Positions 15,475 through 22,320 of a stretch of DNA of 39,495 nucleotides are shown piece after piece (position 1 is the stretch's first letter; the number at the start of each line of letters is the position of its first letter). Under the pieces are notes generated by a model. It had not been told where the DNA came from. It searched no databases and saw only the letters and a program-made list of their open reading frames with translations. The stretch is taken from NCBI GenBank assembly GCA_002729235.1, contig PBTY01000012.1, positions 30,558 through 70,052 of the forward strand, given 5' to 3'. The stretch comes from Rickettsiales bacterium. Its GTDB lineage: Bacteria; Bacteroidota; Bacteroidia; Cytophagales; Cyclobacteriaceae. The position numbers and the translations under genes are program-made.

Positions 15475-16752
15475 ATGAACATATACGCCAAACTCACCCT
15501 TCTTTGTGTTGTGCTAGTTGTCATCACCTCGTCGGTGGTTTATTTCCTGGTAAATATGGAGTTGGAAAATGCCTTTGGTAGTGAAGCTATCCAGGCAATG
15601 GCTGATAATCCTGCAACGATATCAACTACTGTGCAGAATACCATAGATGGCATACAGACTAAACTTATCTGGACGGTCTTAGCGGTAATTGCAGGCTCAA
15701 TTGTTCTAGCTCTTGCTGTTGCAAACATGTTTGTAAAACCTATTTTAAAAATTACGAAAGCAGCTGAATCAATCGCTGCTGGTAATTTAGAAACAGAAAT
15801 ACCAGTCAACTCCAATGATGAGCTTGGCAAACTAGCAGACAACCTAAATAAAGCATCAAAAGGATTAATCAAGCGTTTGGCTGAGCAGCGAAAATTCAAT
15901 GAGACACTCGAGGCTCAGAAGGATGAAATTCATTCTCAAAAACTTAAAATAGAGGAAGTAAACAATCAGATTTCGGATAGTATAGTCTACGCACATAGAA
16001 TTCAGAAATCAATACTTCCGGAACTTAATGTCATGTCTCGTTTGGTTAAAGATGCTTTTGTCATCTATAAGCCAAAAGATGTAGTATCGGGGGACTTTTA
16101 CTGGTTTGAAAGAGTAAGACAAGGAAGAAATGAATACTTGATTATTGCGTGTGCGGATTGTACTGGCCACGGTGTACCGGGGGCTATCATGTCCATTATG
16201 GGAAGTAATCAGCTGACAAATATTGTTTATTACCAAAATTATTTGGACCCAATTAAAATACTCGCTCGTCTGGATAAGGTAATCAAGTTTGAGCTTCAGC
16301 GTGATGACAATGATGAAAAACATAGTCGTGACGGTATGGAAATCGGCATTTGTGTAATCAACCTTGATGATTTGTCCATGGAGTTCGCAGGAGTTGGGAT
16401 TCCTCTATACATTATTAAAAACGGGGCTACTGAACTCGAAACGTACAAAAGCCCTAAAATGATGGTTGGTGGAATTGAAGGAGATGAAAAAGAGGTGTCT
16501 GAGCAATTGGAAAAGCAAACCATCCAACTGGAAGAGGGCGACAAAATATTCCTGGCTTCTGATGGCTATCAAGACCAATTTGGAGGAGACAATGACAAGA
16601 AGTTCATGACGAAGAATTTCAAAAAGCTAATTGAAGATGGAGCTAAAAGCCCTATGTCAGACCTTAAAGAATCTCTTGAGACAGAATTTGACAACTGGAA
16701 AGGAAACACACCTCAAACGGACGACATTGTCGTACTGGGAGTAGAAATTTAG
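15475..16752 (+). CDS. SiaA-like membrane PP2C/SpoIIE phosphatase with HAMP domain
   Basis: The 425-residue protein has two membrane helices (about 5-26 and 64-87) around a very short periplasmic loop, a HAMP domain (about 87-140), a coiled-coil linker with ISDSIVYAHRIQKSILPE, and a SpoIIE/PP2C phosphatase domain (about 195-425). All metal-binding acids are present: D207 in VSGDFYW, D228 in ADCTGHGVPGA, D363 in ASDGYQDQ and D416-D417 in TDDIVVLG. It should remove phosphate from Ser/Thr of a regulator. The domain order equals SiaA of Pseudomonas, whose substrate is SiaC; a SiaC and a SiaB are encoded 4-6 kb downstream. The short loop argues against a large ligand-binding sensor domain. A perfect terminator follows. 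Confidence 0.88.
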   Translation: MNIYAKLTLLCVVLVVITSSVVYFLVNMELENAFGSEAIQAMADNPATISTTVQNTIDGIQTKLIWTVLAVIAGSIVLALAVANMFVKPILKITKAAESIAAGNLETEIPVNSNDELGKLADNLNKASKGLIKRLAEQRKFNETLEAQKDEIHSQKLKIEEVNNQISDSIVYAHRIQKSILPELNVMSRLVKDAFVIYKPKDVVSGDFYWFERVRQGRNEYLIIACADCTGHGVPGAIMSIMGSNQLTNIVYYQNYLDPIKILARLDKVIKFELQRDDNDEKHSRDGMEIGICVINLDDLSMEFAGVGIPLYIIKNGATELETYKSPKMMVGGIEGDEKEVSEQLEKQTIQLEEGDKIFLASDGYQDQFGGDNDKKFMTKNFKKLIEDGAKSPMSDLKESLETEFDNWKGNTPQTDDIVVLGVEI

Positions 16753-16780
16753 AATAATAGCATTTAACTGAATACTAAAG

Positions 16781-16810
16781 AAAAAGGACTCTATCGCTAG
16801 AGTCCTTTTT
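16781..16810. terminator. Strong bidirectional intrinsic terminator
   Basis: AAAAAGGACTCTA (16781-16793) and TAGAGTCCTTTTT (16798-16810) form a perfect 13-bp stem with a 4-base loop TCGC, with T-runs on both strands. It sits 28 bases after the phosphatase gene and 24 bases past the stop of the convergent 79-aa gene, so it can end both transcripts. Confidence 0.9.
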
Positions 16811-16834
16811 TATTTGTTTCTGAAAGTTTCCTAC

Positions 16835-17074
16835 TTAGTAGCGTACCAGGAGTTCCTCATCTACAGATAATTCGTACAATTCTCCCAGAGCATTATTTAA
16901 GGAAGTTAACAACTCGTTATCCAAATCTATATCTGGATCTAGTTCTTCCATCTGCTTCAAAGTCATCCCTCTTTCACGAACCTGATCTAAGCATTTTAAG
17001 CATATCCTGGTCCAAGATTGAGGACTTATGTTCTCCGTACACCAATTTTTAAAATTGCTAGCCTTTACTGCCAT
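16835..17074 (-). CDS. Unrecognised 79-aa protein, last gene of the kinase/pseudophosphatase operon
   Basis: I do not recognise a family. The sequence has an N-terminal helix (SNFKNWCTENISPQSWTRIC), a CxxC pair (C25-LK-C28, with C12 before it), and an acidic C-terminal half (EELDPDIDLDNELLTSLNNA) that looks helical. No membrane segment or signal peptide is present. It starts 9 bases after the stop of the receiver/PP2C gene, with TAAGAG as a possible ribosome site, so it is very probably translated from the same messenger. Its position suggests a partner or small regulator of that protein, but this is only context. Confidence 0.7.
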   Translation of the reverse strand: MAVKASNFKNWCTENISPQSWTRICLKCLDQVRERGMTLKQMEELDPDIDLDNELLTSLNNALGELYELSVDEELLVRY

Positions 17075-17083
17075 ATTTTACTC

Positions 17084-18331
17084 TTAAAGCTTAAAGCCAA
17101 TTATTGAAATATCATCATTCAAACCACTATCACCCTTCCAATCATCAATCGTTTGACTTAAAAACTGGTATTGCTCATTTAAAGGTTTCGTGTGTATCGA
17201 TTTAAGCATCTCTTCAAATTTCTCCTGAGAGAACTTCACACCATCTTGATTTTCCTGATTGTAATAACCATTCGAGAACATATAGTAGGTAGAACCTTCT
17301 GTGATCTCTATTTTATCTGCCATTAAATCGTAAGCATGTTCTGGGGATTCACCTTCCAATACCACCATTTCTTCTCCATCAAAGATGATCATATCCTGGT
17401 TGATTCCACTGAACTGTAATGTCTTCGCATTATTATCAAACAAAGCTACAGAAACTTTCATTTCACACTGCAATTCCTTGGAACCTGCGGCATCCAATTC
17501 TTGAGTAAGTTCTTTAATGATATCTCCAGAATGGAAAATCTTCCGATCCTGAATCAAATCATTTAGTACAGAATCTGCTATTAAAGTCTTCAAGGAACCA
17601 ACGATACCCTTACCATCAAACTCAATGACAGCAACAACAGTATAGTCCTCCGATCTGAAATTCAAACTGGTGGTCCAAATGAACTCTTCACTAAACAGGT
17701 ACTTGCTTCTGTACATAACAAAGTGATCAGCAAATATTCTATTTAAATACCGCTCATTTGGAAGCATAGACTGCTGCAGCAGACCTGCATATCTAATGCT
17801 ATCAATCAAGCGTTTGTTGATCTTATTAATCTCCTCTGTACGTTCTTTTACTCTGCGCTCAAGCTCTGTATTGGTATCTTCTAATTCCTTCAGGTGCTCC
17901 TCACTGTCTTGAGACTTTTGATACGTCTCCATTGCTCTGTCGAGCACACCTTTCATTTCATCAAAATTCCAGGGCTTGGTGATGTATTTATAGATACCAC
18001 ATCTATTAATCCCATCCTTGATTGCTTCGATATCCGTAAATCCAGTTAAAATGATCTTGATCATATCTGGATAGTCAGGAAGAATTTTCTCCAACAACTC
18101 AGTCCCTGTCATTTCAGGCATTCGCTGATCAGTCACGATTACCTGTATTTCATTCTCTGCCAGTATATCAATAGCTTCAATGGGGCTTGCCGTAGTATAT
18201 ACATTAAAGAACTTTCTAAAGTTGGATTTAAATACCCTTAAGTTAGTGGTTTCATCGTCCACATAAAGCAAAGAGTATTTCTTCTCCTTCTTCCCTTGTC
18301 TTAATTCTGCAGTCTCTTGAATTTCTTCCAT
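17084..18331 (-). CDS. Response regulator with degenerate PP2C/SpoIIE (pseudophosphatase) output
   Basis: Numbering from the ATG at 18331 (415 residues; a GTG lies one codon upstream). Residues 19-135 are an intact receiver: D25-D26, phospho-acceptor D68 in VIVTDQRMPEMTG, T96 and K119 in YITKPW. A coiled coil (about 142-190) leads through LIDSIRYAGLLQQSMLPNE to a SpoIIE-like domain. Compared with the neighbouring active phosphatase, the metal-binding motifs are altered: SGDF reads SEEF (E215-E216), ADCTGHG reads IEFDGKG (E237) and SDG reads SNG (N354); only DD (D406-D407) is kept. Catalysis by the usual two-metal mechanism is therefore unlikely. It may bind a phosphoprotein or SiaC without dephosphorylating it. 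The gene follows the histidine kinase by 48 bases. Confidence 0.88.
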   Translation of the reverse strand: MEEIQETAELRQGKKEKKYSLLYVDDETTNLRVFKSNFRKFFNVYTTASPIEAIDILAENEIQVIVTDQRMPEMTGTELLEKILPDYPDMIKIILTGFTDIEAIKDGINRCGIYKYITKPWNFDEMKGVLDRAMETYQKSQDSEEHLKELEDTNTELERRVKERTEEINKINKRLIDSIRYAGLLQQSMLPNERYLNRIFADHFVMYRSKYLFSEEFIWTTSLNFRSEDYTVVAVIEFDGKGIVGSLKTLIADSVLNDLIQDRKIFHSGDIIKELTQELDAAGSKELQCEMKVSVALFDNNAKTLQFSGINQDMIIFDGEEMVVLEGESPEHAYDLMADKIEITEGSTYYMFSNGYYNQENQDGVKFSQEKFEEMLKSIHTKPLNEQYQFLSQTIDDWKGDSGLNDDISIIGFKL

Positions 18332-18379
18332 CACTCTAATGCTAGGCGTTCTTTATAAAGTTTGAGTTGGTTATTTGAA

Positions 18380-20284
18380 TTATTTGCTTTCTGCAACTTT
18401 CGTATTTGAATCTTTGTTTGCTTCTCTTACAGATTTTGGAAGAGTAATTACAAACTCAGTACCTTGATTTTCTTCACTCGTAAATTCAATCTTACCTCCG
18501 TGCTTTTCGATGATACCATAGGTAATCGACATCCCTAATCCGGTACCAACACCCACCGCTTTCGTAGTGAAGAAAGGTTCCCAGATTCTATTCTTAATCT
18601 TTTCAGGAATACCAGAGCCATTATCCTTAAGTCTTATTACTACTTCATCTTCAAGCTCCTCAGTGTAAATCGTGATTTCACCGTCCTTCTTGTCTTCAGG
18701 TATCGCTTGGATTCCATTGTTCAGAATGTTCATGAATACCTGGTTCAACTGACCAGGATAACATTCAATCTCATTCATCTTCTCATCATAGTACTTAGAT
18801 ACTTTGATTCTATTCTTGGTCTTGTTTCTAAGAAGTGTCAGGGTCGCATCAATATTTTCATTGACATTAGCCTGCTTAACTTCCTCTTCATCCAATCTTG
18901 AGAAGACTCTAAGACCTTTTACAATCTCAATTGTTCTGGTTACACCGTAGTTTACGTCCTTGATCAACTCATCAAGCTCTTCCATGATCTCTTCGTACTC
19001 ATGCTCCTCCTTCAGCTCTTTGATGTTCTCAATGACTTCTTCAATGTCAGCGTCTCCCTCGTCTAATTTGGAGTATTCTTCTGCAATTTCTCTCAATGAC
19101 TCAATGGACATCTTAATAGAAACCATACCAGAAGAAATGAAGTTAATCGGATTATTGATCTCATGGGCAATACCAGCTGTCAACTGACCAAGTGATGCCA
19201 TTTTCTCAGAGTGAACCAACTGAGACTGGGCTCCTTTCAAGGACTCCAGTGCGTTGTTGAGTTCTTCCTTAGAATCCTGCTCTTTCTTAAGTGTTTCTTT
19301 CAACTTTTTCTCCGCTAAGAACAGTTTCTCATTATCGAGCAATTGCTTATCAGCGAGCTCTCTAATCTCTTCTTCAGAATCCTGTAATTTCTTGTAGGCA
19401 TCGTTCAGATCATCCTGTGCTTTGATCAATTTCTCATTGATTCTAATTTGCTCTTCAGATGACTTTAACAACTTAGCCTCGGAATCCTGTAATTTCTTGT
19501 TGTTCTCTTCCAACTCTTTTCGAGATTGGTAAAGCTTTTTGTTAATGAGTTTTTGTTTCTGGAAGTTGACTTTCAATTGCTCCTCAGACTTCTTCACCTT
19601 GATATAGGCCTTGTTTGCAGATAAGTAGTTATCGCCAGCAAGTTTTACCAACGGTCTGAATACGAAGAATCCCTGAATCAATAGGAAACCAAGGAAAACA
19701 CCGAATACAATCTTTTCGATGAGACTGTAACCTGTCTTGTATGATTGTGACTCTCCCACCCAAAATTCTGTGATTTTTTCAGATGCTGTCTGGTAATTTC
19801 TAATGGTTGTAATGAGCGTAACAATACTGCTTCTGAGTGCTAATGCATTCACATCAGCTTTGTTTTCAGTGTATACCACATCCAGTAGATTACCGGCATT
19901 GGTATTCATCTCATTGAAATAGAACTTTAGATTATTCTGTAGTTCGTTGTATTCAGCTCCAGCAGAAAAGGGCTGTATGCCTAAATCTGCATCACCATTT
20001 AGTAAAGCCTCGTGACCTTTTCTCCAAATCGGCAATACCCTACCTATCTCTGCTTGCCAAATGGAAAAGTTTCGTTCAGTATTGGCATACCCCATACCCA
20101 GGGCCGCTTTTACTATTTGTTGCCCCATGGCCGATTGATCCGCTGCAACTTTCACCGCTATTGGGTCATCGTTGAAGTTATCAATCAAGTCTTTCTGAAC
20201 GAAGAAGATGTAATAAGCTACCGAACCTGCAACAAACAATGCTGTCAACACGTAGGCTATAGCGTAAAGATCCTTCTTTAACAT
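18380..20284 (-). CDS. Membrane sensor histidine kinase with PilJ/NarX-like input and repeated coiled-coil tether
   Basis: The 634-residue kinase has a membrane helix (about 8-29), a periplasmic helical domain (about 30-190) with ADQSAMGQQIVKAALGM and IWRKGHEALLNG, which resembles the PilJ/NarX-type four-helix input, and a second membrane helix (about 191-209). A long charged coiled coil (about 225-360) contains three full 35-residue repeats. Then come HisKA with H374 in GIAHEINNP and an HATPase domain (FMNILNNGIQAI; DNGSGIPEKI; GTGLGMSITYGII), so the kinase should be active. It is first in an operon with the receiver-pseudophosphatase and the 79-aa gene; that receiver is its likely partner. 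It is transcribed away from siaB across a 480-base gap. Confidence 0.92.
   Translation of the reverse strand: MLKKDLYAIAYVLTALFVAGSVAYYIFFVQKDLIDNFNDDPIAVKVAADQSAMGQQIVKAALGMGYANTERNFSIWQAEIGRVLPIWRKGHEALLNGDADLGIQPFSAGAEYNELQNNLKFYFNEMNTNAGNLLDVVYTENKADVNALALRSSIVTLITTIRNYQTASEKITEFWVGESQSYKTGYSLIEKIVFGVFLGFLLIQGFFVFRPLVKLAGDNYLSANKAYIKVKKSEEQLKVNFQKQKLINKKLYQSRKELEENNKKLQDSEAKLLKSSEEQIRINEKLIKAQDDLNDAYKKLQDSEEEIRELADKQLLDNEKLFLAEKKLKETLKKEQDSKEELNNALESLKGAQSQLVHSEKMASLGQLTAGIAHEINNPINFISSGMVSIKMSIESLREIAEEYSKLDEGDADIEEVIENIKELKEEHEYEEIMEELDELIKDVNYGVTRTIEIVKGLRVFSRLDEEEVKQANVNENIDATLTLLRNKTKNRIKVSKYYDEKMNEIECYPGQLNQVFMNILNNGIQAIPEDKKDGEITIYTEELEDEVVIRLKDNGSGIPEKIKNRIWEPFFTTKAVGVGTGLGMSITYGIIEKHGGKIEFTSEENQGTEFVITLPKSVREANKDSNTKVAESK
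19274..19588 (-). repeat. Three tandem 105-base (35-codon) repeats inside the kinase gene
   Basis: Kinase residues 233-267, 268-302 and 303-337 are consecutive 35-residue units. Each starts Ser-Glu, has Asn-(K/E)-Lys-Leu at unit positions 16-19 (NKKL, NEKL, NEKL) and ends K-K-(L/E)-Q-D. A fourth, partial unit begins at S338 (SKEEL) and runs into the H-box helix. The DNA keeps the spacing: the bases CCTG of the repeated Gln-Asp codons recur on the plus strand at 19276, 19381 and 19486. Thirty-five residues equal five heptads, so units can be added without changing coiled-coil register. Confidence 0.85.
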
Positions 20285-20764
20285 ACTCGTTAATGGTTGG
20301 TTAGAATTGGATTAACTCAGCAATCTTAAATTTAATCAATCTTTTTAAATCGCTTGAGTCCTAGAATAATCCACTAAGTGAATTACAAAATAAAGCCTTA
20401 TTCGGCTTTTTCTCAAAACTTTGACTGGTTAAGTTCAAAACCACTGGTATCAACTGAAATACTGCCTATCACAAAATATTCCAAATTGAAACATCATGCA
20501 TTTTATCCATAATTTCTGATTCTGACAACATTTGAAAAAGCAATTAGATATCATTTGGTATAAAAAAAGAATCAATCAGCATTATATTGCAGTCAATAAG
20601 AGCACAGTGCAGCTATATCCCAACCTATAACTCGCTGTATTTTAATCATTTGACATTTAAATAATTAAAGATTTGGTTTAATCCATAAATAGTCTTTACT
20701 TTTCGAATTCGAAGCGGACTGTTTTTTGATTACAGCCATAAGTGAATTATCACATTTAAATCGC
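20285..20764. other. 480-base divergent intergenic region between the kinase operon and siaB
   Basis: This is the largest gap in the window. It is AT-rich, has no convincing reading frame and must hold the start sites of both the kinase operon and siaBC. I could find one plausible promoter, for siaB, near its right end. I could not see a perfect palindrome, a tRNA or a recognisable riboswitch; a small RNA or several regulator sites could hide here. Confidence 0.6.
20672..20704 (+). promoter_or_regulatory. Putative promoter of the siaB-siaC operon
   Basis: TTTG at 20672-20675 is followed, after 21 bases, by TACTTTTC at 20697-20704, one base off the TAnnTTTG element. The predicted leader to the ATG at 20765 is about 55 bases. 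Confidence 0.4.
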
Positions 20765-21325
20765 ATGGATTACCTAAGAAGTTATAAGAACATTTATGAT
20801 CAAAATATAATTTTGATGTACAAGGGTGAATTGACCTTTGACTTAGTAACTTCTATGATCGCAACTCTTGAAGAGAGATTGGAGGAATTAGAGGAAAATA
20901 GAAAGGTGAAAAAGAAGTTTTACAATGTGGCAACTGAGTGCATTCAAAACTTATATTATCACCTGGATGAAGTAAACGCAGATGAAATCAGAATTAGTAG
21001 TTATGATTCCAGATCTGCACTAATTTTAATAGCAGCAAGAAAAAGATTTTATAGTCTACAGACTGGAAACTACGTTCCTACTGAGAAAATAGGCGAAATA
21101 AAATCCAGACTTGATGATATAAATTCGGTAGAACCTGATGAACTTCGTGCTTTGTACAAAAAAGCGTTGAACGAACAAGAGTTTTCTGACAAAGGAACAG
21201 GAGGACTTGGTTTTATTGATATCGCAAGAAAAACAGGCGGACAGAAGTTAAGATATAAATTTCAACCAGTGACCGACAATGTAACCTATTTTACATTGCA
21301 GGTAAGATTGCCTAGAGAAGTATAG
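20765..21325 (+). CDS. SiaB-like protein kinase (DUF6272, GHKL-type fold)
   Basis: From the ATG at 20765 the product has 186 residues and no membrane segment. The N-box-like stretch VATECIQNLYYH (E58, N62) and the glycine loop DKGTGGLGFIDIARKTG (144-149 GTGGLG) match the ATP-binding signs of the SiaB/DUF6272 family, a GHKL-related group of Ser/Thr kinases akin to anti-sigma-factor kinases. In Pseudomonas, SiaB phosphorylates SiaC. Here the next gene, 33 bases on, is a SiaC homologue, which makes the assignment firm. An in-frame TTG at 20726 would add 13 residues; the ATG is preferred because MDYLRSYKNIYD starts the conserved part. Confidence 0.82.
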   Translation: MDYLRSYKNIYDQNIILMYKGELTFDLVTSMIATLEERLEELEENRKVKKKFYNVATECIQNLYYHLDEVNADEIRISSYDSRSALILIAARKRFYSLQTGNYVPTEKIGEIKSRLDDINSVEPDELRALYKKALNEQEFSDKGTGGLGFIDIARKTGGQKLRYKFQPVTDNVTYFTLQVRLPREV

Positions 21326-21358
21326 GCTACTGAGCAGAAAAAGCTGTGAAACAACCTT

Positions 21359-21745
21359 ATGGAAAAGTTTTTTATTGAGCCAACGAGGGTAACACCATTA
21401 GTAAACTTTGATCCGGAAGAGGGTATTCTGGAGGTAAAGGGTCGATCGAGCCCTGAAAACTCTATATTATTCTATCAGAAGATCATTGATAGTTTAGATG
21501 AATTTGCTGAAAGCGGTGGAGATGAATTCACTGCCAATTTCTCTTTCGAATACTTTAACACGAGTTCATCAAAATGCTTGTTTGATGTGTTCAAAAAGTT
21601 GAGTAAAATCAACGATGAAGGCAAAGAGCTGACTATCAACTGGTTTTATGAAGAGGATGATGAGGATATGATGGAAGCTGGTGAGGATTATGCAGACTTA
21701 CTAGATCTAGATTTCAACTTCCGCGAAATCGAAGAATTTGATTAA
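21359..21745 (+). CDS. SiaC-like regulatory phosphoprotein (DUF1987)
   Basis: The 128-residue protein covers a single DUF1987/SiaC domain: IEPTRVTPLVNFDPEEGILE, the GRSSPENSILFYQKI segment, the phospho-site strand SFEYFNTSSSK, and the C-terminal EEDDEDMMEAGEDYADL. The fold is related to STAS-type anti-anti-sigma factors. Thr68, in YFNTSS, falls at the position phosphorylated in Pseudomonas SiaC, where the unphosphorylated form activates the diguanylate cyclase SiaD. The gene follows siaB by 33 bases and precedes a coiled-coil membrane protein by 14 bases; SiaB, a SiaA-like phosphatase and a pseudophosphatase are all encoded nearby. No GGDEF protein is in the window. Confidence 0.88.
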   Translation: MEKFFIEPTRVTPLVNFDPEEGILEVKGRSSPENSILFYQKIIDSLDEFAESGGDEFTANFSFEYFNTSSSKCLFDVFKKLSKINDEGKELTINWFYEEDDEDMMEAGEDYADLLDLDFNFREIEEFD

Positions 21746-21749
21746 GGAG
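21744..21749 (+). promoter_or_regulatory. Strong Shine-Dalgarno overlapping the siaC stop codon
   Basis: AAGGAG begins inside the siaC TAA and lies 10 bases before the ATG at 21760. Such a clear ribosome site is uncommon among the genes of this window and suggests coupled, efficient translation of the third gene. Confidence 0.65.
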
Positions 21750-21759
21750 TCCGTAGTAG

Positions 21760-22320
21760 ATGGAAAGACCTAAGGAACTTTACCATGAGGAAATAAAACG
21801 ACTGAAGGATTTTAGATCCAAGCTAGATACACATGCTATCTACAAACAAGATCTTGAATCCTTTGGCGATGAATACGAAGAGCTAGTCGCTCAAGCCAAA
21901 GTGATTACCAGAGTTTCAGATAGACTACAGAAGAAACTCGATAATGCCAATATCCAGATTCGTGAACAAAACGATGAAATCACGGATAAAAATGTCCAGC
22001 TTGAAACTACAATCTCTGAACTAGCTGAAGCTAAAGTAGGACGAAGAGCTACCACTGCCCTATTCTTTTTAGCCATAATCTTATTCTTGGGGGAAGAACT
22101 GTTCGTAGAAGATGCTATTCAAAACTATCTCTCCTCAGTAGATCTGGGCAACTTCTTCAATAGCTTGAAAGATTATGTAGGTCTTTTCATCAAACTATTG
22201 CTAGCTATTGGATTGAAATTCTTTGAAGGTGGTTTGGAATCATTCCTTTTGAATCAAGAGAAGAAAAAAATCATGAAACAAGAGAAAAAGGAGCAACTAA
22301 GAGCCTCTCCTGCTTCATAA
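21760..22320 (+). CDS. Coiled-coil protein with two membrane segments, in the siaD position of the sia operon
   Basis: The 186-residue product is a long charged helix (about 1-95) followed by a hydrophobic segment (about 97-111), a short amphipathic loop, a second hydrophobic segment (about 138-153) and a basic tail (EKKKIMKQEKKEQ). Within the helix, DEYEELVAQAKVITRVSDRL (37-56) resembles the stalk or signalling-helix that precedes GGDEF, adenylate-cyclase or SpoIIE domains in other proteins, but no such output domain follows. It is the third gene of the siaB-siaC operon, 14 bases after siaC with a strong ribosome site. It may be the membrane target of SiaC. I do not know a named family for it. 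Confidence 0.75.
   Translation: MERPKELYHEEIKRLKDFRSKLDTHAIYKQDLESFGDEYEELVAQAKVITRVSDRLQKKLDNANIQIREQNDEITDKNVQLETTISELAEAKVGRRATTALFFLAIILFLGEELFVEDAIQNYLSSVDLGNFFNSLKDYVGLFIKLLLAIGLKFFEGGLESFLLNQEKKKIMKQEKKEQLRASPAS

Follow-up and report, generated by a model that had tools for sequence, protein, structure and literature searches.

A Sia-type partner switch with a candidate membrane target in the place of its cyclase, and a linked two-component cassette, in a relative of Marinoscillum pacificum

Introduction

In Pseudomonas aeruginosa the kinase SiaB phosphorylates SiaC on Thr68, SiaA removes the phosphate, and phosphorylation blocks the binding of SiaC to the cyclase SiaD (PMC7278518 and the accessible part of PMC7647112). 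What would such a switch act upon in a bacterium in which no cyclase producing cyclic di-GMP (c-di-GMP) is found? The question is raised by a seven-gene locus in a window of 39,495 nucleotides, the whole stretch of DNA analysed here, which belongs to contig PBTY01000012.1 of assembly GCA_002729235.1. The host genome comprises 6.55 Mb, the window lies on its contig C13, and at this locus the nearest named relative is Marinoscillum pacificum. Four of the genes (siaA, siaB, siaC and a gene for a 186-residue stalk protein) are on the forward strand, with siaB, siaC and the stalk gene forming one tight run, and between siaA and siaB lies a three-gene operon on the reverse strand encoding a histidine kinase, a receiver fused to a PP2C domain (REC-PP2C) and a 79-residue protein, p79. 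Since the same seven genes occur in the same orientation at 10 further loci, the arrangement is more than chance.

An earlier note on this DNA had named a HAMP-PP2C phosphatase, SiaB, a SiaC with Thr68 in YFNTSS and the enclosed operon, and all of these lie where it placed them; its list of parts omitted the 186-residue stalk gene, which is likely to encode the output. We consider it probable, though some way from assured, that the locus encodes a Sia partner switch free of c-di-GMP, in which a membrane target has replaced the cyclase and a two-component system supplies a second input.

A stalk protein in the place of SiaD

The 186-residue protein consists of a coiled-coil stalk followed by two hydrophobic helices, taken as transmembrane segments by eye and from the helices of an AlphaFold2 model. 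The stalk carries the motif RVSDRLQ (R51-Q57), which is identical at five of seven positions to RISDRYQ (R80-Q86) of SiaD. In P. aeruginosa SiaC binds the long helical stalk of SiaD, where its Thr68 forms hydrogen bonds with Ser82 and Gln86, as described in the accessible part of PMC8457831; both of these residues are among the shared positions, and an Asn follows seven residues past the motif Gln, as it does in both SiaD repeats. The AlphaFold2 model (43 sequences, mean predicted local distance difference test score, pLDDT, 83.8; predicted template modelling score 0.49) has a short helix, a single helix spanning residues 29-126 and a long helix spanning 132-182, and the first long helix is predicted to pass through the motif (block mean pLDDT 96) into the first hydrophobic segment. 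The membrane target proposed in the earlier note thereby gains a concrete candidate, a protein whose sequence contains a SiaD-like docking motif.

Profile searches hint at a link between the stalk and SiaD. The NCBIfam SiaD model matches the window protein at E 0.0097 and, with E-values of 1 or less (lowest 0.002), 10 of 21 stalk homologues, more than any other family does. Among 177,635 Protein Data Bank (PDB) sequences SiaD (7e6g) ranks fourth at E 0.75, aligned at the docking motif. Ranked against its own shuffles, the SiaD segment 48-100 comes first of 20,001 under profiles A2 and A4 and thirteenth under the motif-only profile A5; against real open reading frames (ORFs) it ranks first of 1,254 with all three. 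The link between stalk and SiaD suggested by these comparisons is weak in each of them taken singly, yet they point the same way.

The stalk and its hydrophobic hairpin were traced through a whole-protein search of 59 genomes (the host and its relatives), of which 23, the host included, gave a match. The 31 matches were reduced to 24 ORFs in 21 genomes (three ORFs from G032, two from G044), each at least 150 residues long and matched by phmmer; the seven dropped were four 74-residue ORFs and three coiled-coil matches within other long ORFs. siaC lies within flanks of 1.5 kb for 20 of the 24, and the motif [VI]-[SG]-D-[RK]-L-[QH] is present in 22. L039 and L043, which lack it, have a receiver ahead of the hairpin (Pfam 6e-16 and 4e-27) and no siaC in their flanks. 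The hairpin stands behind TPR repeats in L066 and L067 (Pfam run on L066 only), and in L035 one protein joins SiaC, motif stalk and hairpin. The hairpin was found at E 0.001 in only 5 of 395 sampled genomes of the phylum, the host among them, and is therefore not widespread. Pfam, NCBIfam and Foldseek gave no known family or fold for it (best Foldseek E 5.8), although the missing Foldseek match is no proof of a new fold because long helices make poor queries.

A motif-based scan of GTDB species genomes returned 70 loci, at 61 of which siaC adjoins the stalk gene and at 59 of which siaB lies within 1.5 kb; conservation of the motif itself across these loci is circular, as they were found by a pattern built from it. 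Some of the 70 are on contigs too short to show the two-component cassette. The two collections overlap: L116 appears to come from the same genome as L031, and L118 from the same one as L033. L065 and L126 very probably share a single genome. In three Reichenbachiella genomes a SiaC lies elsewhere, at 56-61% identity to that of the window. An output gene further downstream was considered and set aside, as the genes past the stalk gene differ among 15 loci compared, with the exception of L124, L129 and L135, which share one downstream neighbour as read by eye.

Soluble proteins of 74 residues that resemble the N-terminal part of the stalk and have no hydrophobic part (L015, L040, L044 and L045, with VKIIDRLM) occur in members of the genus; they were excluded from the counts and are possibly relatives of the stalk or chance coiled coils. 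The one in L015, the only one whose neighbours were viewed, sits by a priA-like gene as read by eye. L112 and L115, recorded as loci of Bifidobacterium breve and Thalassovita, carry Sia genes of Bacteroidota type and are probably misbinned metagenome contigs.

Absence of a c-di-GMP output

No GGDEF match was found in any of the six genomes of the genus, which are drafts with 98-100% completeness, while the same search was positive in 8 of 14 controls, and no SiaD match was found in the host genome. On these grounds c-di-GMP was rejected as the output; because the cyclase is absent, the system, which would work like SiaABC, is not the SiaABCD pathway. The earlier note had proposed an output other than c-di-GMP, and the six genomes make the case stronger than it could know.

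The SiaABC core

The phosphatase combines a HAMP domain (PF00672, 9.6e-13) with a SpoIIE-type PP2C domain (PF07228, 5.8e-21), and the acids of its SGDF, DCTGHG, SDG and DD motifs are all present, in agreement with the earlier note, which had credited it with a complete set. SiaB passes the curated cut-off of the SiaB family kinase model (NF038262, 130.1 bits against 85), and its E-x-x-x-N box aligns by eye with that of P. aeruginosa SiaB. SiaC matches PF09345 at 8.8e-40 (135.6 bits, cut-off 24.5), the Thr of its YFNTSS being residue 68 as counted on the sequence; YFNTSSSK with Thr68 is invariant in all 63 SiaC proteins from the stalk-gene loci and the window. An alignment with the P. aeruginosa protein, read by eye, shows that the contact residues Y65, N67, T68 and S69 are kept and that E110 is replaced by Asp. 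None of the three proteins reaches the cut-off of its equivalog model: SiaA scores 216.7 bits (NF038263, cut-off 700), SiaB 53.6 (NF038264, 225) and SiaC 80.3 (NF038265, 150).

The length of SiaA varies between loci. It is 425 residues in both the window and M. pacificum (L069), with most of the N-terminal sensor region absent, 640-646 residues in 8 of the 10 relatives carrying the cassette, and 460 residues in L071. Additional Sia genes are also found outside the locus. One SiaC paralogue of the host genome (MFNTSSAK; contig C43, L010 9508-9909) lies amid CheA-, CheB-, CheW- and receptor-like ORFs, which by eye look like a chemosensory operon, and its M. pacificum counterpart (L147) likewise has a receptor-like neighbour. 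The NTS triplet is lost in four of the nine SiaC proteins of the host genome, so that some of these may be insensitive to phosphorylation. In two Reichenbachiella genomes a histidine kinase gene comes after a further siaB-siaC pair (L154 80-2654 and L157 749-3304), so that Sia and two-component genes are neighbours there too.

The two-component cassette

The histidine kinase (HATPase 1.1e-23) and REC-PP2C (REC 1.9e-17, SpoIIE 7.4e-9) form, with p79, a cassette found at 13 of the 70 loci. At 10 of these it lies between siaA and siaB on the opposite strand, as in the window, and in three Reichenbachiella species it is on the same strand, directly behind the stalk gene. Genome G003 has a second copy (L184) in the order siaC, histidine kinase, REC-PP2C and p79, and in the kapabacterial locus L126 a single gene encodes receiver, PP2C and SiaB, with siaC and the stalk gene after it. 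The earlier note had set conservation of the neighbourhood beforehand as its test, and the linkage at the 10 loci, in Reichenbachiella with another order and orientation, in the second G003 copy and in the L126 fusion bears it out; the two-component input into the switch that it proposed is supported on genomic grounds by this recurrence. REC-PP2C is present at 82-100% identity in all six genomes of the genus, a count of presence of which linkage is no part. The HEINNP H-box is found in 14 of 14 kinases, and the receiver Asp, read by eye on the alignment, in 15 of 15.

The PP2C domain of the window REC-PP2C had been described as inactive-looking, and three of its metal-binding acids are indeed replaced, although the DD motif and the glycines remain. 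In the Marinoscillum-type proteins (the window and the 10 further loci) the first metal Asp is Glu and the Asp of DG is Asn in 11 of 11, and the second metal acid is Glu in 10 and Ala in one. All acids are intact in the REC-PP2C of the three Reichenbachiella (L084, L085 and L086) and of L126, as they are in 37 of 37 PP2C rows without a receiver, in a comparison of matches longer than 180 residues; the L184 copy also reads as intact by eye. Within the 16.5 kb examined, Reichenbachiella has no PP2C besides REC-PP2C. In the PP2C tree the 11 degenerate proteins form one clade (100/100) on a long branch, and because the tree is rooted only at the midpoint the direction from active to dead rests on parsimony. 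On the simplest history, an active receiver-phosphatase would have given up catalysis to the HAMP-PP2C in the Marinoscillum group and been retained as a regulator. The nonsynonymous divergence (dN) of REC-PP2C between the window and L069 (0.028) is below that of SiaA (0.075), so REC-PP2C is under constraint. Since synonymous divergence (dS) is saturated for most pairs, only the dN values and a few dN/dS ratios are usable; those against L069 are 0.026 for SiaB, 0.033 for SiaC, 0.032 for the histidine kinase and 0.046 for the stalk protein. Behind the second p79 gene in G003 (contig C70, L184 8462-9634) there is a 390-residue protein with a partial PP2C domain, which keeps GGDFFW and TDG, has TDCHIENKSG in place of DCTGHG, and is perhaps another degenerate phosphatase.

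The last gene of the operon encodes p79, which has no match in Pfam or NCBIfam. The helical fold predicted for it is similar to that of the N-terminal part of H-NOX, in a structure comparison that is not significant, and sequence and profile comparisons with H-NOX (HNOB, PF07700) show no kinship. It ends at residue 79 and is without the haem-binding part of H-NOX, full H-NOX ORFs having 173-192 residues (24 of the 25 matches aligned, with L168 left out). A shortened H-NOX, which the model suggests and the sequence and profile comparisons do not, is thus kept as a lead only. A full H-NOX does occur with the hairpin in another cluster (L188 5587-9568, G011:C154), alongside a histidine kinase, a receiver, a receiver-hairpin fusion and a second histidine kinase, which is possibly a nitric oxide-responsive system using the same membrane hairpin as its output.

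Proposed mechanism and alternatives

By analogy with P. aeruginosa, SiaB would place a phosphate on Thr68 of SiaC and the HAMP-PP2C would take it off. Unphosphorylated SiaC may then dock through its Tyr-Asn-Thr-Ser segment on RVSDRLQ in the cytoplasmic coiled-coil stalk, as it does on SiaD, and the docking would alter the stalk and hence the membrane hairpin, a form of inside-out signalling that would need no c-di-GMP. The histidine kinase and the receiver-PP2C would constitute the second input. In the Marinoscillum group the degenerate REC-PP2C would most likely be a phosphorylation-controlled regulator binding SiaC or the active SiaA, with p79 a putative accessory of this branch. Whether the scheme can be generalised is, in our judgement, evenly balanced: the SiaC-docking stalk would be an exchangeable adaptor that drives a new two-helix membrane output module across Bacteroidota, a module driven elsewhere by receivers or TPR repeats, Sia switches without c-di-GMP would relay signals from cytoplasm to membrane, and the receiver-phosphatase of the Marinoscillum group would have become a receiver-pseudophosphatase regulator of SiaC.

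A number of results weigh against the membrane-target reading. Each similarity search between stalk and SiaD is weak in itself (E 0.0097 and 0.75), three unrelated PDB chains outrank SiaD, and the motif-only profile A5 failed to recover it from the PDB at E 10. The coiled-coil family TIGR04211 matches 8 of the 21 stalk homologues (best E 0.00069), and another coiled-coil family reaches E 2.7e-5 among them, both lower than the best value of the SiaD model. The stalk protein has a single docking motif against two in SiaD, and the SiaC contact residues I71, M75, D79, R103, L107 and D114 differ from those of P. aeruginosa. Nine of the 70 stalk loci are without an adjacent siaC, though the three Reichenbachiella genomes have a SiaC elsewhere, as noted above. 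Finally, the host genome has eight SiaC matches (a ninth is found by profile) and only two SiaB, so partners may be mixed.

One alternative is that the stalk protein serves only as an anchor, or as an outside-in sensor by which SiaC is held or released, with the real effector encoded elsewhere in the genome. A hairpin with no family or fold match, standing also behind receivers and TPR repeats, could be an anchor, and no motif-bearing neighbour was found by a single regular-expression scan beside the other SiaC copies in the five stretches of the host genome examined, so that SiaC has other partners. Conservation within the hairpin points both ways: a Glu from the first hydrophobic helix and a Lys from the second do not vary among 24 rows but fall below 90% in 43 rows, which moves the anchor slightly up and the membrane target slightly down, while in the same 43 rows Ala97 is invariant and Leu108, Phe109, Lys153 and Glu160 are kept in at least 90%. 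The stalk gene nevertheless holds the place of siaD and encodes the motif of a target that SiaC activates, and we regard the anchor as unlikely, if by no means negligible. It is a good deal harder to accept, and in our view rather improbable, that the two-component operon is an independent system lying between siaA and siaB by coincidence. Its opposite strand and the terminator-like hairpin that closes it would fit such independence, as would L081 and L100, close loci with siaA, siaB, siaC and the stalk gene but no cassette in the flanks examined, a finding that also counts against a second input as part of the switch. The linkage recurs, however, in three arrangements (divergent, co-directional in Reichenbachiella, and with siaC upstream in G003), and receiver and SiaA-like PP2C share one protein, which in L126 also includes SiaB.

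Two alternatives remain. The window REC-PP2C could have kept its phosphatase activity despite the changed metal ligands and be no more than a second SiaA. In favour of this, two of its three substitutions are the conservative exchange of Asp for Glu, its DD motif and glycines persist, and the protein is more conserved than SiaA in the comparison with L069 given above. Replacement of the acids in all 11 Marinoscillum-type proteins, against their retention in the 37 receiver-free and four other REC-PP2C rows, makes this very improbable. Similarity to SiaABC is all that would speak for control of c-di-GMP through a distant cyclase, an idea that is barely credible given six genus genomes with no GGDEF match and a host genome with no SiaD. 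The membrane-target reading is the one we carry forward. The earlier note had put forward a Sia switch wired to a two-component system with a membrane target as a new variant; overall this stands, but its two-component half is less new than was thought, because receiver-driven PP2C partner switches (RsfSR, HsbR and SypE) are already known from the literature.

Organisation of the locus

The coordinates of the genes and sites are collected in Table 1. The stalk proteins of the window and M. pacificum are 91% identical. A longer siaB ORF is possible from a TTG at 20726. The site between the convergent siaA and p79 genes comes from a scan of the region that returned seven terminator-like sites against 4.5 in shuffled sequence.

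Table 1. Genes and sites of the Sia locus, in window coordinates
Feature	Position	Strand	Remarks
SiaA-like HAMP-PP2C phosphatase, 425 residues	15475..16752	+	Catalytic motifs intact; short N-terminal sensor region
Terminator-like bidirectional hairpin between convergent siaA and p79 genes	16780..16811		Consensus scan only
p79, conserved 79-residue protein	16835..17074	-	Last gene of opposite-strand operon
REC-pseudo-PP2C	17084..18334	-	Phospho-Asp kept; three metal acids replaced (D to E, D to E, D to N)
Histidine kinase	18380..20284	-	HEINNP H-box and ATPase motifs kept
Intergenic region between divergent histidine kinase and siaB operons	20285..20764
SiaB family kinase (DUF6272)	20765..21325	+	ATG start
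SiaC phosphoprotein	21359..21745	+	Thr68 codon 21560-21562, in YFNTSSSK
Stalk protein, 186 residues, two hydrophobic helices	21760..22320	+	Proposed SiaC target; occupies siaD's place after siaC
RVSDRLQ codons (residues 51-57)	21910..21930	+	SiaD-like SiaC-docking motif
C-terminal two-helix membrane hairpin module	22009..22317	+	Elsewhere behind receiver domains and TPR repeats

Implications

SiaC is described in the literature as an activator of a cyclase, and a docking motif on a membrane hairpin would, if the reading is right, extend that role. SiaB, which is still DUF6272 in Pfam, and SiaC would then form a switch of general use, with a target recognisable by a seven-residue motif, and the role of SiaC in bacteria free of c-di-GMP would be directly testable with two small soluble proteins. 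The cassette would likewise offer a bacterial pseudophosphatase that can be compared with its catalytically intact counterpart from a related genus. In the open-licence literature searched, outside which most subscription papers and preprints lie, the terms SiaB/SiaC family, DUF6272 and DUF1987 appear only in the eLife structure paper, and among the matches listed for SiaC, for pseudophosphatases and for partner switching in Bacteroidetes there is no title on this system.

Comparison with known systems

The closest known system is SiaABCD of P. aeruginosa, which, going by PMC7647112, PMC8457831 and PMC7278518, shares with the window the HAMP-PP2C, the SiaB kinase and a SiaC with Thr68 and NTSS, and in both the gene after siaC encodes a coiled-coil stalk with an R-[IV]-S-D-R-x-Q docking motif. 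The window system departs from it in having a membrane hairpin instead of a GGDEF domain as its candidate output, one docking motif instead of two, an inserted operon for the histidine kinase, REC-pseudo-PP2C and p79, and scores that fall short of the equivalog cut-offs for SiaA, SiaB, SiaC and SiaD. RsfS-RsfR of Mycobacterium smegmatis likewise has a histidine kinase beside a receiver-PP2C, which sets the phosphorylation of an antagonist; according to the accessible part of PMC10950880 that PP2C has activity and a sigma factor stands at the end of the chain, whereas the window has a degenerate PP2C, with SiaC as the putative antagonist. In the HptB-HsbR-HsbA-HsbD system of P. aeruginosa and in the CrsR-CrsA and SypE-SypA systems receiver, PP2C and kinase are on one protein, an arrangement to be compared with the REC-PP2C-SiaB protein of L126. 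The antagonists there are HsbA, CrsA and SypA, the targets are FlgM, HsbD, RpoS and biofilm formation, and the accessible parts of PMC6482189 and PMC3610818 describe neither a SiaB/SiaC pair nor a membrane hairpin.

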